A DNA stretch of 64,000 nt from Anaerovorax odorimutans DSM 5092 (GTDB taxonomy: Bacteria; Bacillota; Clostridia; Peptostreptococcales; Anaerovoracaceae), in NCBI RefSeq assembly GCF_000426305.1, contig NZ_AUFC01000001.1:62001-126000 (forward strand), written 5' to 3'. Shown here piece by piece: positions 8,242 through 27,934 of this stretch. Made by a program: the position numbers and the translations under genes. Numbering within the stretch: the stretch's first letter is position 1; each line of letters starts with the position of its first letter. The notes under the pieces are model-generated. The model searched no databases, had not been told where the DNA came from, and was given only the letters and a program-made list of their open reading frames with translations.

Positions 8242-8311
8242 ATAAAATATTTTAATGAGATTTAGAATTATCAGAATACATAGTATATAAAATAGGTAAG
8301 GAGAGAGTCCC

Positions 8312-8584: not shown

Positions 8585-8621
8585 ATTAATAAATAAAAAA
8601 TTATGATAGGAGGAAATTGAT

Positions 8622-9938: not shown

Positions 9939-9950
9939 GGAGGATTTATA

Positions 9951-11069
9951 ATGCAAGCATTAAGAGTGGTACCTAAGGTATTTTATTTCGATACTTTTAA
10001 AGAATTTAATGATGAATTTAAAATTGGTAAAGATGATCTTTTAGTGACTAATGAGTGGATGTATACACCTTATGTTGCTCCTTTAGGCATTGATACAAAT
10101 GTAATTTTACAAGAAAAGTTCGGTTCTGGTGAACCATCAGACGAAATGATTAATGCTATGGCTGCTGAAATGAAGAAATATAATTTTAAGAGGATTATTG
10201 CATTTGGCGGTGGTACAATCGTAGATATTTGTAAAGTATTAGCTTTAGATGTACCTGAACAATCTGTAGATTTATTTACAGGAAAAGTACCTCCTAAGAA
10301 GATTAAGGAATTAGTTGTAGTTCCAACAACTTGCGGTACTGGTTCAGAAGTAACTAACGTTGCAATTGCGGAATTAAAATCACTTCATACAAAGAAAGGT
10401 ATCGCAGTTGAAGAAACATATGCAGATACAGCAGTACTTGTTCCTGAAACAGTGAAGGGTCTTCCTTATAAGTTCTTTGTAACAAGTTCTATTGATGCTT
10501 TAATTCATGCTATTGAATCATATTTATCTCCAAAAGCATCTCCATTTACAGAAATGTATTCATTAAAGGCTATTGAAATGATTATGGCTGGATATAAAGA
10601 AGTTGTTGCAAAAGGAGAAGATGAAAGACTTAAATATCTTAAGGATTTCGTATTAGCTTCAAATTATGCAGGTATAGCTTTCGGAAATGCTGGTTGTGCC
10701 GCAGTACATGCATTATCATACTCAATTGGTGCTGCTTTCCACGTTGCTCATGGTGAAGCAAATTATCAATTCTTTACAGAAGTCTTTAAGATGTACATGA
10801 GAAAAAATCCTGATGGTAAGATTAAGCAAGCAAATAAAATATTCGCTGATATTTTAGGTTGTACAGATGGACCTGAAGTTTATGATGAACTAGAAAAATT
10901 CTTAAATAAATTAATTGTTAAGAAGCCATTGAAAGATTATGGAATGACTGAAGCACAGATTGATGAATTTACTAAGTCAACAGTAGAAAATCAGCAGAGA
11001 TTACTTGCTAACAACTATGTTCCACTAAGTGATGCTGAAATTAGAGAAATCTTTGCTAACTTATATTAG
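9951..11069 (+). CDS. 4hbD: 4-hydroxybutyrate dehydrogenase (iron-type alcohol dehydrogenase)
   Basis: This 372-residue group III (iron-containing) alcohol dehydrogenase should reduce succinate semialdehyde to 4-hydroxybutyrate with NADH. The nucleotide loop GGGTIVD (86-92) and PTTCGTGSE (125-133) are present. The metal ligands are Asp182, His186, His253 and His267, with the +4 and +14 spacing of the family. The gene starts 12 bases after abfT behind an AAGGAGG site. Substrate assignment rests on the cluster with abfT and abfD. No succinate semialdehyde dehydrogenase or GABA transaminase is in the window, so the semialdehyde must be made elsewhere. Confidence 0.93.
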   Translation: MQALRVVPKVFYFDTFKEFNDEFKIGKDDLLVTNEWMYTPYVAPLGIDTNVILQEKFGSGEPSDEMINAMAAEMKKYNFKRIIAFGGGTIVDICKVLALDVPEQSVDLFTGKVPPKKIKELVVVPTTCGTGSEVTNVAIAELKSLHTKKGIAVEETYADTAVLVPETVKGLPYKFFVTSSIDALIHAIESYLSPKASPFTEMYSLKAIEMIMAGYKEVVAKGEDERLKYLKDFVLASNYAGIAFGNAGCAAVHALSYSIGAAFHVAHGEANYQFFTEVFKMYMRKNPDGKIKQANKIFADILGCTDGPEVYDELEKFLNKLIVKKPLKDYGMTEAQIDEFTKSTVENQQRLLANNYVPLSDAEIREIFANLY

Positions 11070-13291: not shown

Positions 13292-14737
13292 TTATTGATT
13301 TTCAGTATTCTCAGTAGGTAAACTCTCGTATATAGTTGATATAAGATTCCAACTAGGAGAGCCAATTAAGCCTGTAACTTCTCCAACATTAAACTCTTTT
13401 TGAACAGCTTTGACAGTAGTTTCTGTTTGTTCATCAAAAACACCTGTTATTTCCACTTTTGGTATATACGGATAATATTGAGAAATTTTTTGCAGATATG
13501 TTTGCATAAGCGTTACATTGTTATCTGCCATACCTTTTGATAGAATATATCCTGGGTAAATAGTTTTATTTTCTAAACAACTTTCAGGTATTCTATTAAC
13601 AATATTCTTATATGCTTTGTCAAGTTCAGCCCAAGTTTGTATTCCTACTACACCATCTACTAAAATGCCAAATTTGGCTTGAATAGCTTTTACGGCTTCT
13701 GTAGTTTCAGGACCAAAGTAACCATCTATTTCTATAACTGGAATGTCATCATAATAACATCCTAATACGCGTACATAATATTGTATCAGTTTAACAAAAA
13801 CGCCTGTGGAACCTTCTTGCCAAGAAACATCAAAGGGACTTTCTATTTCCTCAGCTGTAATTCCTTCAGATACCAGTTCTCCTAAACCTTTTACGCCATT
13901 ATATATGTATTTTATTTTATACCATGTAGCACTTCCTACAATACCATCTACAGTCAAGTTGAATATTCTTTGAAACTCTTTTACAGCAGCTTCAGTCTCT
14001 GCACCAAATACTCCTTCTTTATCTTGTGTTATTTTAGGAATAGAAGGGTAATTCTGACTTATTCTGTTTAATTCATTTTGAATAGTACTGACATCCTGTC
14101 CAAAACTGCCTATTCTAAGAGGGTATAATGGATATGATTCAAAGTTTGCTTGAACAGGTACGTCTGTTACAATATTTATATCATCACCGTAATAATTTTT
14201 TAAAATTTCATATGGTGTATACCCTTGTTCTGCAAGAGATACAGTACCCCATTGGGATAAACCTTCACATTTAGTATTCACACCATCACAATAAGCAGTG
14301 AATGCAGGTTCTATTCTACCTTGTCTTACAACATAAGTATTAAAAATTTCATCAACAATATTAGAAATGTTAGCAAAAATTTCTCTGTTTGGAACGAAAG
14401 AATGATCATATTGAGTTGAATTTGTAATATCAAAATCATATCCACGGCTACGATACCATTCTGTAAATATACGATTTAACGTGAAAGTTGTTTGAGCATA
14501 TATGTTTGCTCTAATAGCACTTTCAGGCCAAGTAGGAAAGATTTCACTTGATGCTACATTTTTTATATAGTCGGGAAATGATAAAGTTATTTCTTCAGCA
14601 GGTTCATCGGGAGTTCCCAGATGTACAGTTACTGTTTCAGGAATAAATGGCAAATCTGGACGGCTGATTATTGTTTCAGGTACTTCAGGTCTTGGTATTA
14701 CAACCTTTTTATTTACATCTAGATTTTTTATATCCAT
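13292..14737 (-). CDS. SpoIID-like / peptidoglycan-binding repeat protein, copy 1
   Basis: This protein of about 481 residues has a short unique lead, a SpoIID-like N-terminal domain with CEGLSQWGTVSLAEQGY, then three peptidoglycan-binding type 1 repeats (each with GYFGPETTEAVKAIQ-like text). It has no classical signal peptide. The frame is open to 14767, but the ATG at 14737 sits 7 bases after an AGAGGAG site and 4 bases after the stop of the upstream copy, so that start is chosen. It is last in a five-gene minus-strand array. Such proteins bind cortex or cell-wall peptidoglycan; a sporulation or germination role is inferred. SpoIID-type catalysis cannot be confirmed because the domain is diverged. 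Confidence 0.72.
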   Translation of the reverse strand: MDIKNLDVNKKVVIPRPEVPETIISRPDLPFIPETVTVHLGTPDEPAEEITLSFPDYIKNVASSEIFPTWPESAIRANIYAQTTFTLNRIFTEWYRSRGYDFDITNSTQYDHSFVPNREIFANISNIVDEIFNTYVVRQGRIEPAFTAYCDGVNTKCEGLSQWGTVSLAEQGYTPYEILKNYYGDDINIVTDVPVQANFESYPLYPLRIGSFGQDVSTIQNELNRISQNYPSIPKITQDKEGVFGAETEAAVKEFQRIFNLTVDGIVGSATWYKIKYIYNGVKGLGELVSEGITAEEIESPFDVSWQEGSTGVFVKLIQYYVRVLGCYYDDIPVIEIDGYFGPETTEAVKAIQAKFGILVDGVVGIQTWAELDKAYKNIVNRIPESCLENKTIYPGYILSKGMADNNVTLMQTYLQKISQYYPYIPKVEITGVFDEQTETTVKAVQKEFNVGEVTGLIGSPSWNLISTIYESLPTENTENQ

Positions 14738-14741
14738 TTTT

Positions 14742-16103
14742 TCACTCCTCTTGAGGTAAATTTTCATATACTCTTGCTATTTCACTCCAAGTAATAGGTC
14801 CGACTAATCCTGTTCCTTGTGATTGTTCAAATTCTTTTTCAAAAGCTCTTACAGCAGCTTCTGTTTGATCGTCAAACACTCCTGTTATATCTACCCTTGG
14901 AATGTTCGGATAAAACTCTGATATTTTTTGTAAATATGTTTGAATTAATGTTACATTTTGATCTGCCATGCCTTTTGACAGTAAATATCCTGGGTAAAGA
15001 GTTTTGTTTTCTAAGCATCCTTCAGGGATATTATTAACAATGGATTTATAATCCTTTTCAAGGTTATACCATGTTTGTATACCTACTATTCCATCAACAT
15101 CAATATTGTATTTTTTCTGAAGTGCTTTTACAGTTTCTGTAGTATCAGGACCGAAATATCCGGTAATATCTATAATTGGAATGTCAGGATAATAACACCC
15201 CATTACACGAAGATAATATTGTAATAATTTTATCCAAATTCCAGAGTCGCCTTCCTTCCACCCAACTCTACTTTCTATTTCTTCAGGAAAATCTTCAGAT
15301 ATAAGTTCTCCTAGACCTTTAACATCATTATAAATATATTTTATTTTATACCATGTGGCAGAACCAATAATTCCATCTTGAATAAGGTTAAATATTCTTT
15401 GAAACTCTTTTACTGCTGCATCAGTTTCAGCACCAAAGATTCCTGCATCATCAAGTTCAATTTTAGGAATAGTAGTATAATTTTCACCAATACGGTTCAA
15501 TTCTTTTTGCAAAGTGTAAACATCTTGACCAAAAGCACCTAATTTTAATGGATATAGAGGGAAAGGTTCAAAATTTGCATCAACAGGGATATCTGTTACG
15601 ATATCAATATCATCACCGAAATAATATCTAATAATACCATAAGGATTATATCCCATATTAGCAAGGGAAACAGCTCCCCATTGTGATAAACCTTCACATT
15701 CCTTACTTACTCCATCGCAATAAGGAGTATACGCAGGAGCTTGTTCTCCTCGCCTAATAAGATAACTAGTAAAAATTTGATCAATTATAAAGGAAATATT
15801 TGCAGGTATTTCTCTTTCTAGTTCAAAAGGCTGATCAAATTCTGAATTTGTAATATCAAATTTATAGCCTTGATCTCTGTAAGTATTATTAAACAGCCTG
15901 TTTAAGGTAAATGTAATTATAGAATAAATATTTGCCCTAATGGCACTTTCCGGCCATGTAGGATAATTAATAATTGAAGCAACATTTTTAATATAATCAG
16001 GAAATGACAAGGTTATATTTTCAGCCTCTTCATCAGGAGCTCCGAGATGCACAGTAATTAATTCAGGAATGAGAGGGACGTTAGGTCTACTAATTATTAC
16101 CAT
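14742..16103 (-). CDS. SpoIID-like / peptidoglycan-binding repeat protein, copy 2
   Basis: This 453-residue protein is a paralogue of its neighbours. It has the same N-terminal segment (SRPNVPLIPE... FPDYIKNVAS), an intact SpoIID-like signature (CEGLSQWGAVSLANMGY) and three peptidoglycan-binding type 1 repeats. The repeats end with the conserved GSATWYKIKY, GIQTWYNLEK and GPITWSEIAR turns. A GGAG site precedes the ATG. It starts 17 bases after the small transthyretin-like gene and ends 4 bases before copy 1, so the genes are tightly linked. It has no signal peptide, as expected for a protein placed on the forming spore from the mother cell, but that location is only inferred. Confidence 0.74.
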   Translation of the reverse strand: MVIISRPNVPLIPELITVHLGAPDEEAENITLSFPDYIKNVASIINYPTWPESAIRANIYSIITFTLNRLFNNTYRDQGYKFDITNSEFDQPFELEREIPANISFIIDQIFTSYLIRRGEQAPAYTPYCDGVSKECEGLSQWGAVSLANMGYNPYGIIRYYFGDDIDIVTDIPVDANFEPFPLYPLKLGAFGQDVYTLQKELNRIGENYTTIPKIELDDAGIFGAETDAAVKEFQRIFNLIQDGIIGSATWYKIKYIYNDVKGLGELISEDFPEEIESRVGWKEGDSGIWIKLLQYYLRVMGCYYPDIPIIDITGYFGPDTTETVKALQKKYNIDVDGIVGIQTWYNLEKDYKSIVNNIPEGCLENKTLYPGYLLSKGMADQNVTLIQTYLQKISEFYPNIPRVDITGVFDDQTEAAVRAFEKEFEQSQGTGLVGPITWSEIARVYENLPQEE

Positions 16104-16120
16104 CGTTTATCTCCTTTCAT

Positions 16121-16597
16121 TTAAATATTCATATCGTTTTCAATAGTTTGATTTTCATTACCATTAGGAAATAAATTTATAGGCTGAATTGATGTAATAT
16201 TATCAAATATAGGTATATCATATACATTGGTGGAATTATAATTTGCTGCTTCTATTTTCGCGTTATATGTTGAATATGGTTTAATAATTTCGGGATTCAT
16301 AGAAAGGGTAGCATCAACTGTTGGTAGAGGTATTGGATCTGTTTTTCCATCCTCATTTGTAGTAACCATTCTGGAAAAAAAATAATCTTCACCTAATTTT
16401 TTTGTTACAGTTATTCTGGCGTTAGCAATGGGTAGTGTACCTTTAAGTGGAGAATCTTCAGTAATTTGAAATACTAGATAACCTGTTTTAGGATTTTCAT
16501 TTAAATACTCTTCTAATAGAATTATTTGAGGGCTGTTTTGGGTGCTATCGTTATCAGCCAATTGCTTTTTAATGTTTTTATTTATGTAACTAAACAT
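16121..16597 (-). CDS. Small transthyretin/CarboxypepD_reg-like protein, copy B
   Basis: This 158-residue protein has a Lys/Asn/Gln-rich start, then one beta-sandwich domain of the carboxypeptidase regulatory type. The recognisable run is GYLVFQITEDSPLKGTLPIA, followed by NARITV and TTNEDGKT turns and a SIQPINLFPNG end. It has no signal peptide and no catalytic residues. It is a clear paralogue of the 159-residue gene at 17927, and each copy lies directly upstream of a SpoIID-like/peptidoglycan-binding gene, so the pair has been duplicated as a unit. A structural partner role is likely but unproven. Confidence 0.68.
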   Translation of the reverse strand: MFSYINKNIKKQLADNDSTQNSPQIILLEEYLNENPKTGYLVFQITEDSPLKGTLPIANARITVTKKLGEDYFFSRMVTTNEDGKTDPIPLPTVDATLSMNPEIIKPYSTYNAKIEAANYNSTNVYDIPIFDNITSIQPINLFPNGNENQTIENDMNI

Positions 16598-16642
16598 AAA
16601 AATTTCACTCCTTATATAATATTAATTTAATATAAAATATTT

Positions 16643-17908
16643 TTATTTAGATTCTTGTATTGGTAGATTTTCATAGAGTAATGCTATTTGATTCCAAGTA
16701 TTAGGACCGATTAAACGTTCATAATCTTTAAGATTTAAATACTCTTCTTGGATTACTTTTACAGCAGCTTCCGTTTGATCATCATAAACACCTGTTATTT
16801 CTACTGTTGGAATGTTTGGATAAAATTCTGAGATTTTTTGTAAATATGTCTGCATTAATGTTACATTTTGATCTGCCATTCCCAGAGATAGTATATATCC
16901 GGGGTATAAAGTTTTACTTTCTAAGCATCCTTCCGGTATATTATTAATTATAGATTTATAATCTTTGTCCAGATGGTACCATGTTTGTATACCTACTATG
17001 CCATCTTCTTTTATATTATATTTTCTTTGGAGTGCTTTTACAGCTTCCGTAGTATCAGGGCCAAAATATCCGGTAATATCTATAATAGGAATATCAGGGT
17101 AATAGCATCCTATTACATGTAAATAATACTGTAATACTTTAATCCAAATTCCGGAATCTCCTTCTTTCCAAGAAATTTTACTTTCGATTTCTTGCTCCGG
17201 TAAACCTATACTTTCACTCAACCCTTTTACACTGTTATAAACATACTTTATTTTATACCATGTGGCAGAACCAACAACTCCATCTTGAATAAGATTAAAT
17301 ATTCTTTGAAATTCTTTTACAGCCGTATCTGTCTGTACTCCAAAAATTCCAATATCATCATCATCTATTTTAGGAATTGTAGGATAGTTTTTTCCTATAC
17401 GATTTAACTCTTTTTGAAGTGTATAAACATCCTGTCCAAAGGCACCTAATTTTAAGGGATATAAAGGATAAGGCTCAAAATTTGCATCAACTGGAATATC
17501 TGTTACAATATCAATGTCATTACAGTAAGGTGTATATGCTGGAGTTTGTTCTCCTCGTCTTATAAGATAGCTAGTGAAAATTAAATCTACAATAAATGAA
17601 ATATTAGCGGGAATTTCTCTTTCAGGTTGGAAAGGCTGATCAAGTGCTGAGTTGGTAATATCAAATTTATAACCGTTATTACGATATTCGTTATTAAATA
17701 GTTTATATAATGTGAATGTAATTATAGAATAAATATTTGCTTCAATGGCACTTTCAGGCCAGGTAGGGTATATTTCAATGGATACAACGTTTTTAATGTA
17801 GTCTGGGAAAGGTACGGTTATATTTTCTGCATCATCATCAGGTTCTCCAAGATGCACAGTAATCATTTCTGGTATAAGGGGAACGTTTGGTCTACTTATT
17901 ACTACCAT
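16643..17908 (-). CDS. SpoIID-like / peptidoglycan-binding repeat protein, copy 3, with internal deletion
   Basis: This 421-residue paralogue keeps the N-terminal segment and all three peptidoglycan-binding repeats but has lost the SpoIID signature. Where copy 2 has 35 residues between YTPYC and DIDIVTD, this copy has a single Asn, a net in-frame loss of 34 residues (102 bases). The lost part holds the SQWG motif, so if the domain has enzymatic or structural activity this copy should lack it while still binding peptidoglycan. An AAAGGAG site precedes the ATG. It starts 18 bases after the first transthyretin-like gene. Confidence 0.7.
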   Translation of the reverse strand: MVVISRPNVPLIPEMITVHLGEPDDDAENITVPFPDYIKNVVSIEIYPTWPESAIEANIYSIITFTLYKLFNNEYRNNGYKFDITNSALDQPFQPEREIPANISFIVDLIFTSYLIRRGEQTPAYTPYCNDIDIVTDIPVDANFEPYPLYPLKLGAFGQDVYTLQKELNRIGKNYPTIPKIDDDDIGIFGVQTDTAVKEFQRIFNLIQDGVVGSATWYKIKYVYNSVKGLSESIGLPEQEIESKISWKEGDSGIWIKVLQYYLHVIGCYYPDIPIIDITGYFGPDTTEAVKALQRKYNIKEDGIVGIQTWYHLDKDYKSIINNIPEGCLESKTLYPGYILSLGMADQNVTLMQTYLQKISEFYPNIPTVEITGVYDDQTEAAVKVIQEEYLNLKDYERLIGPNTWNQIALLYENLPIQESK

Positions 17909-17926
17909 ATTATTTAACTCCTTTCA

Positions 17927-18406
17927 TTAGAATAATTTGGGTTGATTAGCAAAAATTCTATCTCCACTTGGATTAGGTATTAACGTAATGGGTTGAATAG
18001 ATGTAATATTTTCAAAGATAGGTATATCAAATGCACCTGTTGATAAAAAACCTTCTGTTTCTATTATGGCGCTGTATGTTGCATAAGGTTTTATGTTTTC
18101 GGGATTTAGGGAAAGATCAGCATCGACAGTTGGTAGAGGTATTGCAATTGTTTTTCCGTCCTCATTGGTAGTGACAACCCTTGATACAAAATAATTATTC
18201 CCTATCATTTTACTTACAGTTATTTTTGCATTAGCAATAGGAACAGTACCTTGAAGCGGTGAATCTTGGGTTATCTGGAAAACGAGATATCCAGTTTTGG
18301 GGTTTCCATTTAAATATTCTTGAAGCAATGTGTAAAATTCATTATTATTGCTAGGCTGCGATTGTTGTTCTGAATTTTGTTTTATTTTATAAAACATTAA
18401 ATTCAC
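17927..18406 (-). CDS. Small transthyretin/CarboxypepD_reg-like protein, copy A
   Basis: This 159-residue protein is first in the minus-strand array and is a paralogue of the gene at 16121. It shares GYLVFQITQDSPLQGTVPIA, NAKITV and TTNEDGKT. A Gln/Asn-rich N-terminal stretch of about 25 residues precedes the beta-sandwich domain. A strong AAAAGGAG site lies before the ATG. The promoter for the array should be in the 18407-18614 gap, but no clear sigma recognition pair was found on this strand. Confidence 0.68.
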   Translation of the reverse strand: MNLMFYKIKQNSEQQSQPSNNNEFYTLLQEYLNGNPKTGYLVFQITQDSPLQGTVPIANAKITVSKMIGNNYFVSRVVTTNEDGKTIAIPLPTVDADLSLNPENIKPYATYSAIIETEGFLSTGAFDIPIFENITSIQPITLIPNPSGDRIFANQPKLF

Positions 18407-18556
18407 TCCTTTTGAGTATAATATATTAAACTAATTTGATTCATATTATTATATTTATAAATATAATAAATGTGAATTTATTTTTATTAAATTAATGAGA
18501 ATTATTAATTTATAGAAAATTTTTTGCGTGCTGTACTATTTTTAATAAGTTTTGAC

Positions 18557-18584
18557 ACTATTCAAAATGTATCTGCATATTATA
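18557..18584 (+). promoter_or_regulatory. Sigma-K-like promoter pattern upstream of the split ATPase gene
   Basis: The string CATATTATA (18576-18584) matches the CATANNNTA -10 pattern of mother-cell sigma factors, and an AC at 18557-18558 lies exactly 17 bases upstream, as in the sigma-K consensus. An overlapping TTGACA (18552-18557) has no well-placed sigma-A -10, which weakens a housekeeping reading. The match is short and could be chance. Confidence 0.4.
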
Positions 18585-18614
18585 GATGAATGAACCAGAA
18601 AAGGGGAGATGAAT

Positions 18615-18917
18615 ATGGAATTAAAGGGGAAAGCTCGCCATATGTATCCAGGAAATAACACTCCTGAAGGGTTTTTTTCTTATTACAACTATATTTTAAG
18701 CCAAAGAGAGGCAGATAAAATTATATGCATTAAAGGTGGGCCTGGAGTAGGAAAATCTACTTTTATGAAAAAAATTGCTGAAGAACTTTTGGAGGACGGA
18801 TATAATATTGATTTTATGCATTGCTCTTCAGATAATAATTCATTAGATGGTATTGTATTAAGAGATAAAAAAATTGCTATGGTTGATGGAACCAGCCCTC
18901 ATGTGGTAGTAGCATAA
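18615..18917 (+). CDS. PRK06851-family P-loop ATPase, N-terminal part (split gene)
   Basis: This is the first part of a two-P-loop ATPase of the PRK06851 type, cut off after about 100 residues. It has a complete Walker A (GGPGVGKST) and the HCSSDNNSLDG and VDGTSPH segments usual in the family. The last native codons encode SPHVV; two foreign codons (V, A) and a TAA at 18915-18917 then end the frame. The ATG at 18615 lies 6 bases after AGGGGAG and is preferred to the one at 18609, which touches the site. The remainder of the gene is at 25770-26582. Joining the parts at the shared CATGTGGTAG core restores one frame of about 366 residues. Confidence 0.85.
   Translation: MELKGKARHMYPGNNTPEGFFSYYNYILSQREADKIICIKGGPGVGKSTFMKKIAEELLEDGYNIDFMHCSSDNNSLDGIVLRDKKIAMVDGTSPHVVVA
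18900..18909 (+). repeat. Left attachment core (attL)
   Basis: CATGTGGTAG, identical to the right-end core at 25767. The first codons belong to the ATPase (His-Val-Val). The sequence after it (TAGCATAACT) is element DNA and supplies the stop codon. Confidence 0.8.
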
Positions 18918-19278
18918 CTGCTAATTTAATAATTTATCCATTTAAAACACTTAATCTATGATTTTCAGTGTTTTTTTTATGAGAAAATTTATTTTGAAAA
19001 TGAATTTTGAGATGTTTAATAAAACTAATTATTAAATTAATATAAATTTTATTGTTGTTAATGTTTGCAGTAAAATGGATATATTATAATATTTTTTATA
19101 AGACAAAGAAGTAAGTAACATAATTTGCCTATATTTTTGTCATTTTATGCTTATATATATCATTTTTTGCTTTTAAGTATTGACTAATACGTTTATATAT
19201 GATAAGGGTAGAAAGAAGGTCTTTAATTTATGATTTATAAGTGATAGGAAAAATAAAATTAAATGTATTTAATATATT
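18918..19278. other. Left-end non-coding stretch of the element
   Basis: About 360 bases without a gene. It holds the hairpin at 18944-18978, then very AT-rich DNA. No promoter or small ORF could be supported. Confidence 0.5.
18944..18978 (+). terminator. Terminator just inside the left end of the element
   Basis: AAAACACT (18944-18951) pairs with AGTGTTTT (18967-18974) and is followed by a T-run. It would stop transcripts of the broken ATPase gene from entering the element. Confidence 0.7.
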
Positions 19279-19458
19279 TTAAATGAAAAATATAACGAAA
19301 AAATATAAGAATAAGGAAAGGGACACAATTCCTATAAAAACGTTAAAATATAAAACATCTATCGGAGATAAGTCATCTTTCAATTTATGAATTTTAACCA
19401 TTATACTTACTAAATTTATAAAAAAAATATTTGCAAATAAAATACTTATATAAAACAT
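19279..19458 (-). CDS. Small hypothetical membrane protein
   Basis: A 59-residue product with two hydrophobic segments (about 2-22 and 38-59) separated by a charged stretch, HKLKDDLSP. The frame opens at a TTG at 19476, but the ATG at 19458 lies 9 bases after AAAGGA and is chosen. I do not recognise a family. It is the only left-end gene of the element running on the minus strand. It may be real cargo, but a chance hydrophobic frame in AT-rich DNA cannot be excluded. Confidence 0.45.
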   Translation of the reverse strand: MFYISILFANIFFINLVSIMVKIHKLKDDLSPIDVLYFNVFIGIVSLSLFLYFFVIFFI

Positions 19459-19759
19459 TCTTTTATGTCCTTTCAATATTTTGAGACAAATGTATTATCT
19501 ATATTACAGATATGGATATAACAATTAATTAATTCCTTGAAATAGTGCAGCATCAATATTAATAATTATATCATATTTTCATACTTTGTAGGCCAATCTA
19601 TATGGCTATTTCAATCTTTGAGAGGATTTATTATATTATGTGTTTCAGCTGTTGCAATCATTGAAATCATTGCAAATAATTAAAACCTTTTAGAAATAAA
19701 ATATTTAAGTATTAATTAATATAAAATACGCAGAAGACATTAATTGTGAGGTAAGATAA

Positions 19760-20146
19760 TTGAAAATAATAAAAATAATAAAAGTAATTGTCATTGTAAT
19801 ATTAATAGTTATTTTTTCAATAATTGTATCATTTTTTATAAAAATTTTTTTTATAGGAGATATAATCAGTGATGGGTTATATGTGGAAAATATTACAGTT
19901 AGTGATAATCTGGTTACTATTAAAGGCGATTCAGGAGGAAGTGCAGATGCCTATAAGGGTTTTGATTACTATATAGATGGAAATAGTTTATACATCAAGC
20001 TTAGGTATGTTCTAGCTTCACGATTTTCTGATGGGGGGATGAATTTTTCGGTAAAAATAGAAGACGAAGATTTTAGTAAAATAGATAAGATATATTTTAC
20101 CGATGGTAACGATGATAATCTGATATGGATAAAGGGAGAGAGTTAA
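19760..20146 (+). CDS. Hypothetical membrane-anchored protein, element cargo
   Basis: This 128-residue protein has one N-terminal transmembrane or signal-anchor helix (about 5-32) and then an extracytoplasmic beta-rich domain with Gly/Asp-rich turns (KGDSGGSADAYKGFDYYIDG). Translation starts at TTG after GAGGTAAG. Its TAA overlaps the next gene's ATG (TAATG), so the two are translationally coupled. I do not recognise the family. It has no catalytic signature. Confidence 0.65.
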   Translation: MKIIKIIKVIVIVILIVIFSIIVSFFIKIFFIGDIISDGLYVENITVSDNLVTIKGDSGGSADAYKGFDYYIDGNSLYIKLRYVLASRFSDGGMNFSVKIEDEDFSKIDKIYFTDGNDDNLIWIKGES

Positions 20147-20832
20147 TGTCAATAAAAAAAATAATTAAAACTAATATTATAATAACTATATCTTTTATAC
20201 TCATCTTAATAATAGGTTATGGTTTAATAACAATAAATACATATTCCGAAGATTCGTTTGACTTTATTTATTCTTTAAAAAAAGAAACTATAAATGATGA
20301 TATGGGTGAAGCTTATATTTTAAATAATGGTAAAGAATTTATAACTCATATTTGGAATACAAAAGGAGAAGAATTTGATTTAGATGAAGCAGAGTATGTT
20401 TCTGAAAATATAATTGAATTTAAAGCATATGAAGGAAAACTAAATATTCCTACTCCTGAGAGAACAACTGAAATTCAGAATTCATTTTTTTCTTATTATA
20501 AAATTTCACCTGATTATAAAGGGTATGGGAGTGTGAGCTTTAAAGATCCGATAAAAATTACAATTAATGAGTATTTCCCGGAAAATATAGTAAAGGAAAC
20601 TACCAAGCTACAAAGAAAAATCAGAAATTATGACAGCGATTGGAATAAAAGAGATAAATGCAGTATGACTTTATATAATCCAATTATTATTCCGGAAGAG
20701 TATAACGGATATTTAGTTTATATACCTGAATATATTTGTATATCCAATGTTAATAAAGATAGAATTTATGGTTGTTATCCAATAAAGAATAAAGGATATA
20801 TTATGGAAATTTGTGTTGAAGATAAAAATTAA
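20146..20832 (+). CDS. Hypothetical membrane-anchored protein, element cargo
   Basis: This 228-residue protein has one N-terminal transmembrane helix (about 9-31), followed by an extracytoplasmic domain rich in Tyr, Asp and Lys. It overlaps the previous gene by one base (TAATG), with an AGGGAGAG ribosome site inside that gene. The frame also extends 21 bases upstream to 20125, but there the spacing is wrong. I do not recognise a family. Cotranscription with the 128-residue neighbour is nearly certain. Confidence 0.65.
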   Translation: MSIKKIIKTNIIITISFILILIIGYGLITINTYSEDSFDFIYSLKKETINDDMGEAYILNNGKEFITHIWNTKGEEFDLDEAEYVSENIIEFKAYEGKLNIPTPERTTEIQNSFFSYYKISPDYKGYGSVSFKDPIKITINEYFPENIVKETTKLQRKIRNYDSDWNKRDKCSMTLYNPIIIPEEYNGYLVYIPEYICISNVNKDRIYGCYPIKNKGYIMEICVEDKN

Positions 20833-20935
20833 TATATCCTTTTAAAGTAATAATTAACAATGATTTTATTAATGGTAATTAAAATGTTAAATATATTGTG
20901 AAGTTTAAGTTTTAATTTAAGAAAGGAAAATAATT

Positions 20936-21895
20936 ATGAAAAAGGGGAAATTGCGAGTAGTTGTATTTTTATTATTTGTTTCTATGCTATTTACATTTAG
21001 CGGATGTCAATCAAACGAGAAAATAATTATGGCAGACATGAATAAGACAGAAATATTAAATACTGAAAAGGTAGTTAAAATTTTGAATAATAATGGAATG
21101 AATTTATCTAAAGATAATAATTTTCCAATAGATTTATCATTATGTAAGGTTTATGGTAAAAAACCTCAACCGTATTTAAGCAGCCAAACAGGAGCTTATT
21201 ATATATTTTATGAATATGATGGGTATAGTGAAACAAGCATATTAGCCAAAGATGCCATATTTTATGAATATCCTGGTTGCAGCGATGATTTTAAAAAAAA
21301 TATTTACCCTAGTAATATTGTGGGGAAAAATATTTATGTTTGTTTATGGTATCCTGATCTTGATTCATGGTCAGATAGCAGTATGAGTGAAGAAGATAAT
21401 GAAAGATTTGATTTAAGTATTCAGGAAATGATAAAATTAAGACAGGAACTTAATGATAAAGTCTTTAATAAAAAGAAAGCAGTTTTGACCGGATATGGGA
21501 ATAATTGGTTCGTGAAAATTCCTGTTGAATTTATTTACAACCAAAATCATTTATTGGACAAAGTGTTTTTATTAAATGCACAAATACTATTAAAGCCCAT
21601 AAATTTTGAAGAAACTCCTGAAGTAAAATCAATTAAATTAGTAAAGAATATTAATGATTATTCCTTAATGTCAACTGATGGTAATTTCTTAAGGAATAAA
21701 AATGAAGAGGGGTTTTATACTACTTTTTGGATAAATGAAACGGATTTTGATCCTAATAATATGGAATTAAAAGTAACAATTACTTGTGAAGATAGTAAAA
21801 CAGGAGAAATTCTCTGCAAAGTCAGACATGAAGAAGGTAATAATTATATCAAAAATGATAAATTAAAAATGTTGTTTAAAGAATACTTTTTATAA
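20936..21895 (+). CDS. Hypothetical lipoprotein, element cargo
   Basis: This 319-residue protein begins with a lipoprotein signal peptide (lipobox FSGC, Cys about 24) and should be anchored on the outer face of the membrane. The mature part has a run of Asp/Ser/Glu residues (DSWSDSSMSEEDNE) and mixed beta segments. No known domain is recognised. An AGAAAGGA site precedes the ATG. It follows the two membrane-anchored genes by about 100 bases and points the same way. Confidence 0.7.
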   Translation: MKKGKLRVVVFLLFVSMLFTFSGCQSNEKIIMADMNKTEILNTEKVVKILNNNGMNLSKDNNFPIDLSLCKVYGKKPQPYLSSQTGAYYIFYEYDGYSETSILAKDAIFYEYPGCSDDFKKNIYPSNIVGKNIYVCLWYPDLDSWSDSSMSEEDNERFDLSIQEMIKLRQELNDKVFNKKKAVLTGYGNNWFVKIPVEFIYNQNHLLDKVFLLNAQILLKPINFEETPEVKSIKLVKNINDYSLMSTDGNFLRNKNEEGFYTTFWINETDFDPNNMELKVTITCEDSKTGEILCKVRHEEGNNYIKNDKLKMLFKEYFL

Positions 21896-21953
21896 TAGAT
21901 AATTTAAGAAATTGCATTATTAAAATTATTTATATTAGTGAGAGGTGTATTAA

Positions 21954-22514
21954 ATGAAAAAATTAATTATTTTTGTTATACTAAGTATTTTTACTTTTGC
22001 TTTAATAGCATGTTCTAATAATTTAACAGAAGAAACATACAAATATAAAGGAGAAACTACAGTTAAAACGGATGATCGTAATTTTGTATTAGAAGATATA
22101 CCAGAAAATTTGGCGGAGGAAACTATTGCAAAAGATTTTTTATATACTATAACAGGTGAATTCGATAAAAAAGCAGAAATAATAGCAGATACAGAAGAAT
22201 ATTCATTTTCAATAGAAAATGAAAAAAAACAATTCGAAAACGAAGAGTTTCCTAAATCATATATTATACATAATATTTCAACTTTGACAAAAGAAGAATA
22301 CGATCACTATAATGAGTGGCAAGAGTGTGTTGAAAAATATAAACTAAATGATTATAAAATAGTTAATGTTAATTTCACACAAACTTATTCAGAAGAAGCC
22401 ATCGAAAAAGGTCCTCAATGGGGAAATGGAACATATAGCAGAAGTTTTATTGTAGGAAAAAGTAATAACATATATAAAATCTATGATTTTGGTGTAATGT
22501 CGTATAAAGATTAA
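21954..22514 (+). CDS. Hypothetical lipoprotein, element cargo
   Basis: This 186-residue protein has a lipoprotein signal peptide with lipobox LIAC (Cys20). The mature part is acidic, with WGNGTYSRSF near the C terminus. A GAGAGGTG site precedes the ATG. Its stop codon shares the bases TTAA with the stop of the convergent AEC transporter gene. No family is recognised. Confidence 0.7.
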   Translation: MKKLIIFVILSIFTFALIACSNNLTEETYKYKGETTVKTDDRNFVLEDIPENLAEETIAKDFLYTITGEFDKKAEIIADTEEYSFSIENEKKQFENEEFPKSYIIHNISTLTKEEYDHYNEWQECVEKYKLNDYKIVNVNFTQTYSEEAIEKGPQWGNGTYSRSFIVGKSNNIYKIYDFGVMSYKD

Positions 22515-23443
22515 TTTAATTCGAGTAGTATTGCAAAGATTGGAATGGTAATAATGGAGAATACTGTTGAAAGTAAGATTCCTTTAGTTGCAAAAGGTAC
22601 ATCGCTATTATACTGCTGTGAAAAAATAGAAGTACATGTAGCTACAGGCATAGCAAATTCTATAATTATTACTTTTGCAAGTAATGAAATATCATTTAAA
22701 GCAAAACGCATTAATAGAAAAACGACTCCTGGAATAATTATAAGTTTTAAAAATGAAAGCAGGTATAAATTTAAATCACCAAGAAGTTCTTTGATGTTAA
22801 TTTGACCAAGCTGAAGCCCAATTACAAGCATGGTAAGTGGTGTTGTAGCAGAGCCAATCATATTTACTGATTCACCTAAAAAACCTGGTAATTTATAATT
22901 AAATAAAAATAGGCAAAAACCTATAATAATTCCAAATATTCCAGGGGATATTAATTCTTTTAAATTTATTTTTGCTTTTTCTCCAGCAGAAAGTTGTATT
23001 AGTATTATGCCTATGGTAAATATGAAAATATCATTTGCCATTTCAACCATAGAGGCATAAAATACAGCTTTTTTTCCGTAAATAGCATTAATAACAGGTA
23101 TCCCTATAAACCCTGTATTTGCAAATACAAGCATAAAAGTAAAGAGATATGCTTTTTCAATCTTAAGTTTTATAAGCTTTACACTAACATAGCTTAAAGC
23201 AAAAGCAAGGGCAAAGGCAACTATCATGATTATGAATATATACCCACAGCTTATAAGTGTTTCTTTTGAAAAGGGAATCTGCATTCCGCTTATTACAAGA
23301 CATGGCCAAGTTATATTTACAACAATTGTAGAAATTCCTTTAGATTGATTTTCATTTATAATATCTTTCTTAGATAATAATATCCCTGGAATAATCATTA
23401 TAAATATCATAGCAAGAGAGTTAATAATTTCAGAAATACCCAT
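22511..23443 (-). CDS. AEC-family (auxin efflux carrier-like) transporter
   Basis: This 310-residue protein has about ten transmembrane helices and the family features of AEC carriers: an N-terminal MIIPGILLSKK loop, FANTGFIGIPV, and a C-terminal FAMPVATCTSIFSQQY. Members export organic acids or amino acid derivatives; the substrate is not readable. A GAGGTG site precedes the ATG. It is the only recognisable transporter inside the element and the largest minus-strand gene there. Its 3' end overlaps the lipoprotein gene by 4 bases with no terminator between. Confidence 0.88.
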   Translation of the reverse strand: MGISEIINSLAMIFIMIIPGILLSKKDIINENQSKGISTIVVNITWPCLVISGMQIPFSKETLISCGYIFIIMIVAFALAFALSYVSVKLIKLKIEKAYLFTFMLVFANTGFIGIPVINAIYGKKAVFYASMVEMANDIFIFTIGIILIQLSAGEKAKINLKELISPGIFGIIIGFCLFLFNYKLPGFLGESVNMIGSATTPLTMLVIGLQLGQINIKELLGDLNLYLLSFLKLIIIPGVVFLLMRFALNDISLLAKVIIIEFAMPVATCTSIFSQQYNSDVPFATKGILLSTVFSIITIPIFAILLELN

Positions 23444-23801
23444 AAAAACACCTCATTTTTAGATTGAAAAATTTAATATACTAAGTAATATATATTTTAT
23501 TTACTGCTTTTATTATAATACAATTTAATTAGAATGTAAGTATGAACTTTTTAGTAAAATAATTCTAACAGGAAAGTGAAGTCCATATGAATATTATGCA
23601 TAAATTAGAAAAAGTACCTTTTAAGTATACTCTTAATATTATTTGTGGTAAATAGAAGGTGAGGATAATATAAGGTAGCATCTAATAAATAACTAGAATT
23701 TAATGAAATCAAGGAAAATGTATAGGATTTCTTATAAAATATTAAATGATTTATTTAAATAATTTATTCTTAAACAAAAAGATAATATATGGTAACTAAG
23801 A

Positions 23802-23837
23802 AAAGATTAACGCCTGAGTAAAGTGTTAACTTTTTTT
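23802..23837 (+). terminator. Hairpin terminator inside the element
   Basis: AAAGATTAACGC pairs with GTGTTAACTTT (one bulge, one wobble) and is followed by a T-run. It isolates the recombination module from upstream transcription. Confidence 0.6.
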
Positions 23838-23873
23838 ATGTATAATAAGTAAAATATTTTGCAATCAAGAAAG

Positions 23874-23923
23874 TATGACAAGCACTATTTAAAAAGAAAA
23901 GTATATGACAAGCATTATTTAAA
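23874..23923 (+). repeat. Twin 20-base direct repeats upstream of the recombination module
   Basis: Two copies, 23874-23893 and 23904-23923, that differ at one position. Their start points are 30 bases apart, about three helical turns. The core TATGACAAGC matches 9 of 10 positions of the WWRRACARNY pattern I recall for SpoIIID. They end 37 bases before the 51-residue ORF, where an activator could bind. Confidence 0.6.
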
Positions 23924-23960
23924 TAAAATGTGATAATGGATTTTCTAAGGGGGTGTTTTT

Positions 23961-24116
23961 ATGAAAACTATATATGTAGTTAAAGAAACTTATAAATTTA
24001 AAGATAAAGACGAAAGGAATATAAAAATATCACAGAAATTAGCAGAAATAATGAGGAGCGATAATTTTCTAAACAATGAGGCAAATTTTTGCGCTGATAA
24101 GAATACTTACTTATGA
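23961..24116 (+). CDS. 51-residue protein preceding the recombinase (candidate excision factor)
   Basis: A short frame with a strong AAGGGGGTG ribosome site. It encodes a charged 51-residue protein (VKETYKFKDKDERN... ISQKLAEIMRSDNF) with one likely amphipathic helix. It is not recognised. It lies 53 bases upstream of the large serine recombinase gene, on the same strand and behind the twin repeats. Large serine recombinases need a small directionality factor to excise, and such factors are often encoded next to the recombinase, so this is the best candidate here. That role is inferred from size and position only. Confidence 0.6.
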   Translation: MKTIYVVKETYKFKDKDERNIKISQKLAEIMRSDNFLNNEANFCADKNTYL

Positions 24117-24169
24117 TTGTTATATTTTATCATACAGTCAGTTATCATTTTTGGGAGGTGTAGGTTAAT

Positions 24170-25741
24170 GTGAAAAAAGTGGCCATTTATTGCAGACTCT
24201 CAGATGAAGATAAAAATAAAGAAGGCACTTACGATTCAGAAAGCATTAAAAATCAAAAAAAATTACTAACAAACTATGCTTTAGAAAATGAATGGGATAT
24301 TTATAAGATTTACTCAGATGATGATTGGTCTGGATTAGATGCACTCAGACCTGATTGGAATAAAATGATAAATGATGCTGAGACAAAAAAATTTGAAATA
24401 ATTCTTTGTAAAAGCCAGTCTAGATTTACAAGAGATATGGAAGTTGTGGAAAAATATCTTCATAAATTGTTTCCAATTTGGGGGATAAGATTTATAGGCT
24501 ATACTGATTATGCAGATACAGATAATAAAGGAAATAAAAAGCAAAGACAGATTAATGGACTCGTTAATGAATGGTATTGTGAGGATCTTTCCGAGAATAT
24601 TAGAGTTGTATTTGACAAAAAAAGAAAAGATGGGCAATTTATTGGCTCAATGGCTTCATACGGTTTTGTAAAAGATCCATTGAATAAAGGACGGCTAATT
24701 GTAGATGAAGAGGCTGCTTTAATTGTAAAACGCATATTTGATTTATATATAGAAGGTTATGGTTCAAGTAAAATTGCAAAAATTTTTAATGAAGAAGGTA
24801 TTCCTAATCCTACAAAATATAAAAATTTGAACGGAATAAAATGGAAAAACGGTAATGCAAAAAATGATATGGGATTATGGAATCGTACTACAATAAAAAG
24901 AATTTTAAAAAATCAAATGTATATTGGTAATATGGTTCAAGGAATTAATAAAAAAGTTAGCTATAAATCAAAAAAACAGATTTCAATGCCCAAAGATAAA
25001 TGGTTTATTGTGAAAAATACTCATGATGCCATTATATCTGAAGATATTTTTAAAACTGTTCAGCTAATGATTAGTAACCGTAGAAGATCAAACGGAAGCG
25101 GTAAGCCTCATGTACTTTCTGGAAAAGTTAAATGTGCTGATTGTGGAAGTACTTTATCTCGTATTACTCCACACAGTAAAGATGGAAAAACTTTTTCATA
25201 TAAATATTTAAGATGTAGCATGTCAGAAAAGAAAAATTCCCTTTGTAAAGGACATTATATAAGGCTAGATAAGCTTGAAGATATAATTTTGGAAAGAATG
25301 AAAAATTATCTTAAAGATGTAAATGAAAAACTAATAGAAGAAAGTTTAGGAGGTATTAAATCTAAGAATCAGAATTCAATAAAAAATTTACAAATTAAAA
25401 TAAATGATGTAGAACGAGAATTGCTTAATAAAAAGAAGATAATAGAGACTCTTTATATTGATAGAGTAAATGAAAATATTTCTTTAAAACAGTTTAATGA
25501 TTTAAGTGAAAGTTTCAGAAATCAAATTAATATACTGGAAAAAAGAAGAGAATTAATAATGTATGATGTAAAAAGTAAAATAGAAAGTCAAATTAATGAT
25601 GATGTAAATAAGCTTAAAAAGTATAAATATATCGATAGTTTGACACCAAGACTTATAAATGAATTTATTGATTCTATTACTGTAGGAGAAAAAAATAAGG
25701 AAACAGGAGAGCAAATAATTAATATAAATTGGAACTATTAA
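24170..25741 (+). CDS. Large serine recombinase
   Basis: This 523-residue site-specific recombinase should integrate and excise the element. The N-terminal resolvase domain starts with VAIYCRLSDED, nucleophile Ser11, and has SQSRFTRD and the EWYCEDLSENIR segment at the domain end. The recombinase domain (about 150-260) and a zinc ribbon follow (CADCGS near 322-325, with further Cys near 350-360). A coiled-coil stretch covers about 390-465. Start is GTG, 9 bases after GGGAGGTG. It ends 26 bases before the right attachment core, the usual position for such an integrase. The length is normal and the catalytic residues are intact, so it is probably active. Confidence 0.93.
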   Translation: MKKVAIYCRLSDEDKNKEGTYDSESIKNQKKLLTNYALENEWDIYKIYSDDDWSGLDALRPDWNKMINDAETKKFEIILCKSQSRFTRDMEVVEKYLHKLFPIWGIRFIGYTDYADTDNKGNKKQRQINGLVNEWYCEDLSENIRVVFDKKRKDGQFIGSMASYGFVKDPLNKGRLIVDEEAALIVKRIFDLYIEGYGSSKIAKIFNEEGIPNPTKYKNLNGIKWKNGNAKNDMGLWNRTTIKRILKNQMYIGNMVQGINKKVSYKSKKQISMPKDKWFIVKNTHDAIISEDIFKTVQLMISNRRRSNGSGKPHVLSGKVKCADCGSTLSRITPHSKDGKTFSYKYLRCSMSEKKNSLCKGHYIRLDKLEDIILERMKNYLKDVNEKLIEESLGGIKSKNQNSIKNLQIKINDVERELLNKKKIIETLYIDRVNENISLKQFNDLSESFRNQINILEKRRELIMYDVKSKIESQINDDVNKLKKYKYIDSLTPRLINEFIDSITVGEKNKETGEQIININWNY

Positions 25742-25766
25742 TTATTAATAGTTACGGCACATTACA

Positions 25767-25776
25767 CATGTGGTAG
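25767..25776 (+). repeat. Right attachment core (attR)
   Basis: CATGTGGTAG, identical to the left core at 18900. The codons GTG GTA GAT read straight on into the C-terminal part of the ATPase. An AGTTA arm at 25750-25754 would face the TAACT arm at 18915-18919 in the excised circle. Confidence 0.8.
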
Positions 25777-26582
25777 ATCCAATTAATCCAGGTGCAGTTG
25801 ATTCTATTATACATCTGGGGGATTTTTGGAATGAAGAAGGTATACGTAAAAATCGTGATGAATTAATCAGTAACAATGAAAGAATAAAAGAAATTTTTTC
25901 AAGAGCGTATAATTACTTAGCCGCAGCAGGGAATATGTATGATAACGTAAGAAGTATTTATGAAGGAGCAATAAAAAAAGAAGAATTATATAAGAAATTT
26001 GCAAGAATAATAGGACTTGAATTAGCACATAAAGAGCTCAGTCCTGAGTTAGGAGATTTAAAAAAATATTTTGCAAGTGCAATTACACCAAGCGGATTTG
26101 AAAATTACTTAGGTACCTTATTAAATGGATATAAAAGAATCTATGTAATCAATTCTATAGTTGGAGTCAGCGCAGAAAAAATGTTGGATTTATTTGCAGA
26201 AAGTGCTCTTTATAGAGGATTTAATGTGGAGGGATACTATTGTCCGATGAAACCTGCAACAAAACTAGAACATTTACTTGTTCCGGAGTTAGGTATTGCA
26301 TTTGTAACATCCAATAGATTCCATCCAGTTGATAAAAGTGATCTGGAAAGTGAAATTGTATCAATTGATTTAACTAGTGCAGTTAAAGAATCAAAGATTA
26401 CAGGGCAATGGCAAATCTTAGAAGACAGCCAAAGCCGTATGAATGAGTTATTAGATAAAGCTATAGATTGTTTGAAACTTGCTAAAAAAGAGCATGATTC
26501 CTTGGAAGAATTTTATATTCCTAATATGGATTTTAAAAAAATAGAAGAATTAAGAATTGAGCTTACAAAAAAGATTCGTTAA
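25770..26582 (+). CDS. PRK06851-family ATPase, C-terminal part (split gene)
   Basis: These 270 residues continue the ATPase broken at 18900. They begin VVDPINPGAVDSIIHLGDFW, which follows on from GTSPH in other members of the family. The second half holds the diverged second nucleotide-binding domain (INSIVGVSAEK, GYYCPMKPATKLEHLLVPELGIAFVTSN) and a C-terminal helix. The frame formally opens at a GTG at 25770 with no ribosome binding site, so this part is probably not translated unless the element is excised. The intact coding quality over 813 bases suggests selection, not decay. Confidence 0.83.
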   Translation: MVDPINPGAVDSIIHLGDFWNEEGIRKNRDELISNNERIKEIFSRAYNYLAAAGNMYDNVRSIYEGAIKKEELYKKFARIIGLELAHKELSPELGDLKKYFASAITPSGFENYLGTLLNGYKRIYVINSIVGVSAEKMLDLFAESALYRGFNVEGYYCPMKPATKLEHLLVPELGIAFVTSNRFHPVDKSDLESEIVSIDLTSAVKESKITGQWQILEDSQSRMNELLDKAIDCLKLAKKEHDSLEEFYIPNMDFKKIEELRIELTKKIR

Positions 26583-26586
26583 TATT

Positions 26587-26618
26587 TATAGGGACATTTT
26601 TAATGTCCCTATATTTTT
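26587..26618 (+). terminator. Terminator after the ATPase C-terminal part
   Basis: An 11-bp perfect stem, TATAGGGACAT (26587-26597) with ATGTCCCTATA (26603-26613), followed by TTTTT. Confidence 0.85.
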
Positions 26619-26731
26619 AGTTTAGTCATTGATATTTTTTTATATTTCTATTTTTATATATTCACATTGATAATAAATAAAAAAGAGATTATACTATAAA
26701 TATTATGTAAAATAAATAAAGGAGACTGACC

Positions 26732-27934
26732 ATGAGTCAAAATTTCGTACCACTATTGTTTGCAGGTGACATAAATGTTTATAGTGTTTCAAGAGCATTT
26801 TATGATGAGTATAAGATAAAGCCTTTTGTATATGGCAAATATAGTACTTGGCCTTGTCATGAAAGTGAAATAATGAATTATAATGCAAATCCTAAAGCAG
26901 ATGAGCAAGAAACTTTTTTGCAGTTAGTTGAAGAATTTGCATTAAAAAATAAAAATAAAAAAGTAATTTTACTTGGATGTGGTGACAGTTATGTACAGCT
27001 TATTAGTTCAAATAAGGACAACTTACCAGAGAATATAATTGCCCCTTATATAAATGTAGATATGATGAATGATCTAATTCATAAAGAAAAATTTTATGCT
27101 ATGTGTGAAAAAAATGGAGTAGATTATCCGGATACATTTGTACACAAAAAAGAGATGGGACATGATTACAATCTTCCTTTTGAAGGGCCATTTATAATTA
27201 AACCTTCTAATGGAATAGAATATTGGAAACATACTTTTCCAACTCAAAAAAAAGTTTATAAAGTTGACTCAAGAGAAGAAGTCAATCAAGTACTAGATAA
27301 TATTTATGATTCGGGTTATAATGATTCTAATATTATTCAAAATTTTATTCCCGGTGATGACACTTATATGAGGGTTCTAACTAATTATTCGGACAAGCAT
27401 GGAAACGTAAAAATGATGTGTCTTGGTCATGTACTTTTAGAAGAACATACACCGCATGGTATTGGTAACCATGCAGTTATAATTACTGAACATAATGATG
27501 AGGTTGAAGCTCAATATAAAGGTTTATTAGAAGAAATGCATTATATTGGATTTTCAAACTTTGATATAAAATATGATCAAAGAGACGGAAAATTTAAAGT
27601 ATTTGAAATAAATACAAGGCAGGGAAGAAGTAATTATTATGTTACCGGAGCTGGGCAAAATATTGCAAAGTATGTAGTTGATGATTATATAAATGATATA
27701 CAAATGGATTTAAATATTGTAAAAAATAAATTTTTATGGTTGGTTGTTCCAAAGGGTGTAGCTTTTAAATATATTAAACCTCAAAATTACAAAAAAGAAA
27801 TGAGAGATTTAATTAATCAAGGTAAATATGTAAATCCTCTTTATAATAAAGCTGATTGTAAATTTAAACGCATATTAAGGTTAATTAGGTCACAATTAGG
27901 ACATTATTATAAATTTAAAAAATATTTAAAATAA
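26732..27934 (+). CDS. ATP-grasp ligase of the D-aspartate ligase (Asl) type
   Basis: This 400-residue ATP-grasp enzyme resembles the D-aspartate ligase of Enterococcus faecium, with a similar opening (FVPLLFAGDINVYSVSRAF) and overall length. It would add a D-amino acid, probably D-Asp, to the side chain of the third residue of the peptidoglycan precursor. The ATP-grasp lysine and glycine loop (FIIKPSNGIEYWKH) and the metal-binding FEINTRQGRSNYY are visible. An AAAGGAG site precedes the ATG. The next two genes, a racemase and MurE, fit the same pathway. Whether the amino acid is D-Asp or D-Glu cannot be told from sequence. Confidence 0.82.
   Translation: MSQNFVPLLFAGDINVYSVSRAFYDEYKIKPFVYGKYSTWPCHESEIMNYNANPKADEQETFLQLVEEFALKNKNKKVILLGCGDSYVQLISSNKDNLPENIIAPYINVDMMNDLIHKEKFYAMCEKNGVDYPDTFVHKKEMGHDYNLPFEGPFIIKPSNGIEYWKHTFPTQKKVYKVDSREEVNQVLDNIYDSGYNDSNIIQNFIPGDDTYMRVLTNYSDKHGNVKMMCLGHVLLEEHTPHGIGNHAVIITEHNDEVEAQYKGLLEEMHYIGFSNFDIKYDQRDGKFKVFEINTRQGRSNYYVTGAGQNIAKYVVDDYINDIQMDLNIVKNKFLWLVVPKGVAFKYIKPQNYKKEMRDLINQGKYVNPLYNKADCKFKRILRLIRSQLGHYYKFKKYLK

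Follow-up and report, generated by a model that had tools for sequence, protein, structure and literature searches.

In the 64,000-nucleotide stretch of the Anaerovorax odorimutans DSM 5092 genome analyzed here (contig NZ_AUFC01000001.1, positions 62,001 to 126,000; the window), a gene encoding a dual P-loop NTPase of the PRK06851 family (dwNTPase) occupies positions 18615 to 26582 and is interrupted by a 6,867-bp insert. This insert is probably a skin-like element, small and not of phage type, for which we infer excision, the timing of excision (in the sporulating mother cell) and the involvement of a directionality factor. It has direct repeats at its ends, carries its own recombinase at one edge and restores the reading frame when precisely removed; on the best reading, these anatomical features would make it a new and widespread member of the sporulation gene-intervening elements. 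Its main parts and those of the split gene are the following (window positions; ORF, open reading frame):

18615..18901, plus strand: 5' part of the dwNTPase gene (PRK06851/CD3298-type); it includes the first P-loop and extends to the CA of a His codon
18902..25768, no strand: inserted element, 6,867 bp, ends set at the inferred CA crossover; G+C content of 25.2%, against 30.0% for the window
25769..26582, plus strand: 3' part of the dwNTPase gene
18900..18909, plus strand: left core copy CATGTGGTAG (attL)
25767..25776, plus strand: right core copy CATGTGGTAG (attR)
18902..18931, no strand: inferred attP right arm, from the inverted-repeat comparison of 19 elements
25737..25766, no strand: inferred attP left arm, from the same comparison
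23961..24116, plus strand: 51-aa ORF, candidate recombination directionality factor, ending 53 nucleotides before the recombinase gene
24170..25741, plus strand: large serine recombinase, 523 aa, complete, with Resolvase, Recombinase, Zn-ribbon and DUF4368 domains

The halves, the core and the spacing were found where the original prediction, made from the letters alone, had put them, with the ATPase gene resuming in phase at position 25770. The 5' part yields 98 residues (translated from 18615 to 18908, with GTSPHVV at the C terminus) and runs into a stop at 18915 to 18917, and the 3' part is a 270-aa frame from 25770 to 26582. On NCBIfam profile PRK06851.1-6, they match positions 2 to 96 and 95 to 356, respectively, with scores under the curated cutoff, as were those of all 296 genomes surveyed in the family, including the ones with intact genes. 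Joining the halves by script, with the predicted 6,867 bases removed, produced a single 366-residue frame devoid of stops. Searched with the PRK06851 profile, the A. odorimutans genome yielded no further gene of this type. The second P-loop of the protein is degenerate; since this is also true of intact relatives, it does not reflect decay. The longest word common to both edges is CATGTGGTAG, starting at 18900 and 25767 (spacing, 6,867 nucleotides); because words of 10 nucleotides or more were shared in 14 of 2,000 shuffles of the ~60-nucleotide edges, the repeat by itself is just moderately unusual. The recombinase was likewise predicted to be complete and to sit at the right edge, and it does: all four domains are present, its stop lies 25 nucleotides ahead of the right core and its PHROGs match is an integrase.

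The strongest evidence against chance comes from within the GTDB family, where four further genomes have the gene split at the same codon. When 296 genomes of this family were surveyed with the PRK06851 profile, 88 matched, 79 of them strongly (E < 1e-40), and five of the latter have a gene split at profile position ~90 to 100: G191, G065, G000 (the genome of the window), G087 and G163, with inserts of 3.5, 5.6, 6.9, 53 and 59 kb, respectively. Both forms that the original prediction had proposed to look for in related genomes are present in this set, with an intact gene in G070, which belongs to the same genus as split G191; the G191 flanks align with it at 82 to 83%, with nothing inserted between them. 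In three further genomes (G139, G126 and G224), the gene is broken in other ways or across contigs. An order-level draw gave profile matches in 167 of 392 genomes, and among the matches listed, at least nine more genomes (G352, G361, G366, G370, G376, G386, G437, G441 and G457) have a C-terminal part from position 80 to 93 and no N-terminal part.

Twenty elements with both gene halves, including those of the window and of G065 (the latter as L060), made up the set in which joins were examined. A crossover search by longest shared word gave false cores in short-core pairs, with 10 of 20 in phase, and was replaced by anchoring on the conserved His codon, which draws on knowledge of the protein and was applicable to 19 elements (in L078, the motif was not detected). 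In all 19, both halves are open and are rejoined in frame without a stop. The shared cores range from 2 to 12 bp, and the one dinucleotide common to all 19 is CA, the first two bases of the conserved His codon (DGTxP-H-VVDP); such a constant pair is as expected of the central dinucleotide of a serine recombinase, which this CA would appear to be. The left half reads CAG in 5 of the 19, with CAT or CAC being restored by the join. The inferred attP arms are inverted relative to one another (on average, 15.9 of 26 positions are identical, versus 9.8 after shuffling, with a maximum of 11.05 in 2,000 shuffles), and the inferred attB arms are not (9.9 versus 9.6). At the level of the 19-element family, then, the architecture is that of serine integrase att sites, with a palindromic attP, a nonsymmetric attB and a shared dinucleotide; the window's own attP arms, identical at 12 of 26 positions, are among the lowest of the 19.

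The ratio of nonsynonymous to synonymous substitution rates (dN/dS) was 0.03 to 0.12 for the first part of the gene (four pairs with computable dS) and 0.10 to 0.18 for the second part (five pairs with computable dS, two of which have a dS above 2, near saturation); the remaining rows were saturated, and the second part of G163 was excluded. These low values indicate that both halves are under selection. Decayed pseudogenes, which the original prediction had named as the contrary outcome, were thus not what we found: all 19 anchorable genes are open and in frame, with dN/dS between 0.03 and 0.18.

That the interrupted gene serves sporulation is suggested by work on a relative. PRK06851 is described as the dual-wield NTPase family (PMC10949312), and its Clostridioides difficile member, CD3298, is reported to be a mother-cell gene under sigma-E control (PMC5509370, PMC3789822) and to be required for calcium dipicolinate (Ca-DPA) in spores, with deletion spores containing <1% of the normal DPA (PMC5509370, PMC10449524). 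The PRK06851 profile covers both halves in the window, and with the role having been established for the C. difficile member, the window gene is, by analogy with CD3298, a likely spore maturation gene. Together with the fitting anatomy, this supports the skin-like reading already offered by the original prediction, which had not known the gene as a published target; no dwNTPase-inserted element was found in the open-license PubMed Central (PMC) literature.

A named genome collection was scanned with an alignment of six recombinases, five of which come from elements in spore genes, and the best 80 of 563 confirmed relatives were kept by likeness, so that the fractions given here describe this family and not serine recombinases generally. 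A dwNTPase half was detected at 46 of the 80 loci, or at 45 once L071, in which the gene is intact, is set aside; in 35 of these 45, it lies no more than 300 nucleotides from the recombinase, and in L087 it is nearly 4 kb off. A cotJC-type Mn-catalase gene was found at 21 loci (18 by tblastn at the edge and L122, L124 and L137 by eye), a CspBA-type germination protease at three (profile checked for L125 only) and a gene related to the SleB-like neighbors of the window's split gene at two. Spore-gene targets thereby total 71 of 80 (45 dwNTPase and 26 others); the other nine recombinases (L063, L071, L102, L105, L117, L126, L127, L128 and L135) are located elsewhere or have no assigned target. 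In L071 (Alkaliphilus transvaalensis), the intact dwNTPase gene (15986 to 17050) lies ~4.4 kb downstream of the same-family recombinase.

On a recombinase tree (FastTree), the target labels change 14 times over seven groups, compared to 35.5 times when shuffled, and none of 200 shuffles gave so low a number; near-copies contribute to this statistic, and several long branches were flagged. In this tree, the target follows the recombinase lineage. The window recombinase belongs to a five-member clade with a local support of 100, every member of which is in a dwNTPase gene. It contains DUF4368 and yet falls into a recombinase group tied to one target; in a published survey, this domain was reported in 63% of a multitargeting clade versus 0.73% of site-specific recombinases (PMC10083194). 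Viral contigs provided 25 loci with recombinase relatives. A cotJC piece was present in 3 of the 25 (L152, L153 and L146), and elements of this kind, along with host flank, may thus have been catalogued as viral contigs in some cases; no dwNTPase piece was seen in the examined stretches of the 25 loci.

From its place and size, we propose that the 51-aa protein may act as the directionality factor. Small factors of this kind are on record, such as sprB, located before sprA (PMC6957869), and CD1234, of 72 aa (PMC5025042). Neither Pfam nor PHROGs gave a match for the window ORF. A profile that started from seven such ORFs and was retrained in rounds on its own matches recognized a relative upstream of 25 of the 80 recombinases before retraining and of 46 afterwards; in its final form, it matched 1 of 4,827 decoy ORFs.

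Sigma-E-like promoters were sought with the pattern ATA-N14-18-CATAnnnT. Of 52 elements, 19 have it ahead of the small ORF, whereas shuffling gave a mean of 1.6 and a maximum of 7 (300 rounds); among control upstream regions, it was present in 18 of 633. A promoter model was trained on 19 other elements, most of them from cotJC loci; its scores for the D,D-carboxypeptidase and cotJC elements of A. odorimutans described below were reached by 1.6% and 0.5% of the controls, respectively.

The A. odorimutans genome contains eight recombinases similar to that of the window, five of which are at a split gene; alongside those on contigs C5, C41 and C36, no split gene was recognized in the ORF lists, read by eye. 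In the sporulation sigma factor gene sigK (L055, G000:C1:8000-22000), a 3.5-kb element with an 11-bp core separates two halves that are seamless on the SigK profile (12 to 114 and 115 to 226); the serine recombinase at the edge of this element has 551 aa and is only 28% identical to that of the window. The same search gave an unsplit match below the cutoff on contig C42, presumably SigE. If the split sigK is the only one, it must, by analogy with skin, rejoin for late sporulation. A pdaB-type sporulation deacetylase gene is split as well, with a serine recombinase beside its C-terminal part (L057, G000:C13:28000-42000; profile positions 3 to 130 and 127 to 191); read by hand, the join has a 4-bp shared word and restores WDVDSLDW in frame. 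An S11 D,D-carboxypeptidase gene is interrupted by an 8.0-kb element with metabolic cargo and the 10-bp core CAGCTAATGA (L052, G000:C15:52000-68000, 764 to 9977), its halves meeting at Pfam positions 106/105. Less surely, a Mn-catalase/cotJC-like gene may be interrupted too: its C-terminal part directly follows a recombinase (L051, G000:C6:133000-142936), the N-terminal part would be past the contig end and the assignment comes from a profile E value of only 0.006 and from kinship to other loci by tblastn. Some of these elements have mutually related recombinase/small-ORF pairs. Both spo0A and spoIIID exceed their cutoffs in this genome. Separately, a GidA/FAD-type oxidoreductase gene without its N-terminal part has an abrupt boundary at ~13620 (L053, G000:C5:178000-194000); no recombinase adjoins the gene, and its N-terminal part did not turn up in that region.

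With five genes (sigK, dwNTPase, pdaB, D,D-carboxypeptidase and cotJC-like) at recombinase-edged elements, the mother cell would have to excise the set. Whether this amounts to a programmed multisite somatic rearrangement, in which the mother cell would excise all elements and the spore line would keep them, with one recombinase lineage specialized on spore genes across the Clostridia, we consider evenly poised.

Several observations weigh against excision under developmental control. The elements of the window, G191, G087 and G163 are without the sigma-E-like pattern; the promoter model gave the window a score reached by 42% of control upstream regions, which is not significant, and likewise no signal in the G087 element; and an enrichment of SpoIIID boxes was rejected (7 of 52 elements, compared to 6.1 by chance). 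Since the window element has no significant sigma-E-like promoter, the sporulation-specific claim draws its support from the nature of the target, from the recombinase family and from known precedents. Moreover, the small ORF is unmatched in 34 of the 80 loci (a look-alike is visible by eye in some, and several have no candidate), the relatives were gathered by likeness to mostly spore-gene queries and the circle junction of the window element was not found in the viral contigs. The split is also patchy inside one genus, and at the same codon lie the 53-kb element of G087, with VirB4, coupling-protein and TrbL genes, and the 59-kb element of G163, so that plain mobility could explain the site. 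The insert might then be an ordinary mobile element for which the dwNTPase gene is a harmless hotspot, excised at a low, unregulated rate or, for transfer, under stress, with sound spores descending from chance excisers; the Clostridium botulinum yin element, reported to be excised at all time points (PMC10747680), would fit such behavior. We nonetheless consider this unlikely, given that the short elements (3.5 kb in G191 and 6.9 kb in the window) are still intact without recognized transfer genes, that the family targets mostly spore genes (71 of 80), that the region ahead of the small ORF is enriched in the sigma-E-like pattern across the family and that two other elements of A. odorimutans, those in cotJC and the D,D-carboxypeptidase gene, rank within the top 2% of controls.

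A lineage that no longer sporulates, with a broken gene and the insert as a scar, would account for a split gene with no second copy detected by the PRK06851 profile and for the gene of G139, from the same family, being broken in another way. However, it sits badly with 19 of 19 anchorable split genes lacking a stop or lost frame, with low dN/dS on both halves where computable, with spo0A and spoIIID above their cutoffs and with an intact recombinase between two intact core copies, and we regard it as very improbable. As for an assembly artifact, the genome is indeed a 54-contig draft, but the same-codon split is found on single contigs in G087, G163 and G191 as well as in two complete chromosomes, those of Geosporobacter ferrireducens (L068) and of Clostridium sp. 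strain OS1-26 (L084); the relatives refute this explanation in substance, and we give it practically no weight.

For the skin-like element that we favor, the course of events might be as follows. The large serine recombinase would have integrated the element at a fixed attB within the dwNTPase gene, with the crossover at the CA of the conserved His codon. Since growing cells probably have no need of this gene, they would carry the insert silently. In the sporulating mother cell, the 51-aa protein would switch the recombinase to excision, attL would be joined to attR and the element would be released as a circle, restoring a 366-codon gene whose product would help to load Ca-DPA into the spore; the forespore would keep the element.

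The remaining features of the locus are these:

19760..22514, plus strand: cargo of four ORFs (128, 235, 319 and 186 aa), two with lipoprotein-like starts (by eye)
22511..23443, minus strand: cargo, auxin-efflux-type transporter (Mem_trans)
23874..23928, plus strand: two direct repeats starting TATGACAAGCA, upstream of the small ORF, a possible regulatory site
26732..27934, plus strand: ATP-grasp-like neighbor gene, outside the element, which many other dwNTPase loci, intact or split, also have

The four cargo ORFs had no Pfam or NCBIfam match and weak PHROGs matches only (E of 0.0009 or worse), and the promoter score of the direct-repeat region was not significant. Among the six larger ORFs and the small ORF of the element, no phage structural or lysis genes were recognized; nor were conjugation genes, with Pfam and NCBIfam profiles. 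A tRNA scan of the whole window and an Rfam scan of positions 17500 to 27500 gave no match. Cargo is wholly different among elements at the same site, with a CitMHS/ArsB-type transporter in G191 (L043, 2712 to 3995) and a glycosyltransferase-TPR protein plus a tandem-repeat protein in G065 (L042, 4130 to 6888). Directly before the split gene, window positions 13292 to 18406 hold a series of minus-strand gene pairs whose products carry SleB-like peptidoglycan-binding repeats; two loci from Faecalibacterium (L104 and L119) have relatives of these genes at the edge next to the recombinase.

In the literature consulted, sporulation gene-intervening elements are scarce, and each report describes one or two. 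The recombinase family seen here, which has a constant att site and a candidate directionality factor, extends over dozens of genomes, in elements ranging from 3.5 kb to 53 kb with conjugation genes; the function of the target is known in C. difficile (Ca-DPA loading), and an intact allele exists within the genus of a split one. This opens to testing how mobile elements become developmental switches, whether several excisions take place at once in mother cells and whether DNA excision sets the timing of DPA loading, and many sets of recombinase, att site and small ORF are supplied for such study. Should the multisite reading be true, spore DPA loading would depend on mobile DNA in many species.

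On the best reading, the window element functions in the manner of skin, with gin as its nearest match in detail. Skin, in sigK of Bacillus subtilis and C. difficile, also combines a serine recombinase with a small directionality factor (a candidate in the window), and it is removed in the mother cell to restore the gene but persists in the spore line, as proposed here; it differs in being prophage-like and in its target (PMC5025042, PMC6957869). SP-beta in spsM of B. subtilis has a layout like that in the window, with the small factor (sprB) and then the recombinase (sprA) between attL and attR, but is an active phage with another target (PMC4191935, PMC6957869). The dipicolinate pathway is also affected by vfbin in spoVFB, which encodes a DPA synthase subunit; vfbin and vrin (in spoVR) are, however, phage related, and the former concerns DPA synthesis rather than loading (PMC4191935). 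In C. botulinum V73, yin likewise splits a clostridial spore gene, and circle and rejoined gene are reported to coexist in culture; this element is prophage-like, targets yabG and shows the excision at all time points mentioned above (PMC10747680). Since the window element has no recognized phage genes, gin, in gerE of Bacillus cereus ATCC 10987, is a closer model than skin. While gin differs in its target, its three recombinase genes, its Bacillus host and an excision that has been shown, it shares with the window element the lack of phage genes, a short core, a mother-cell spore gene as the target, a serine recombinase with a small extra factor (GirX in gin, a candidate in the window) and a palindromic element-side att with a nonsymmetric attB (PMC5595907).

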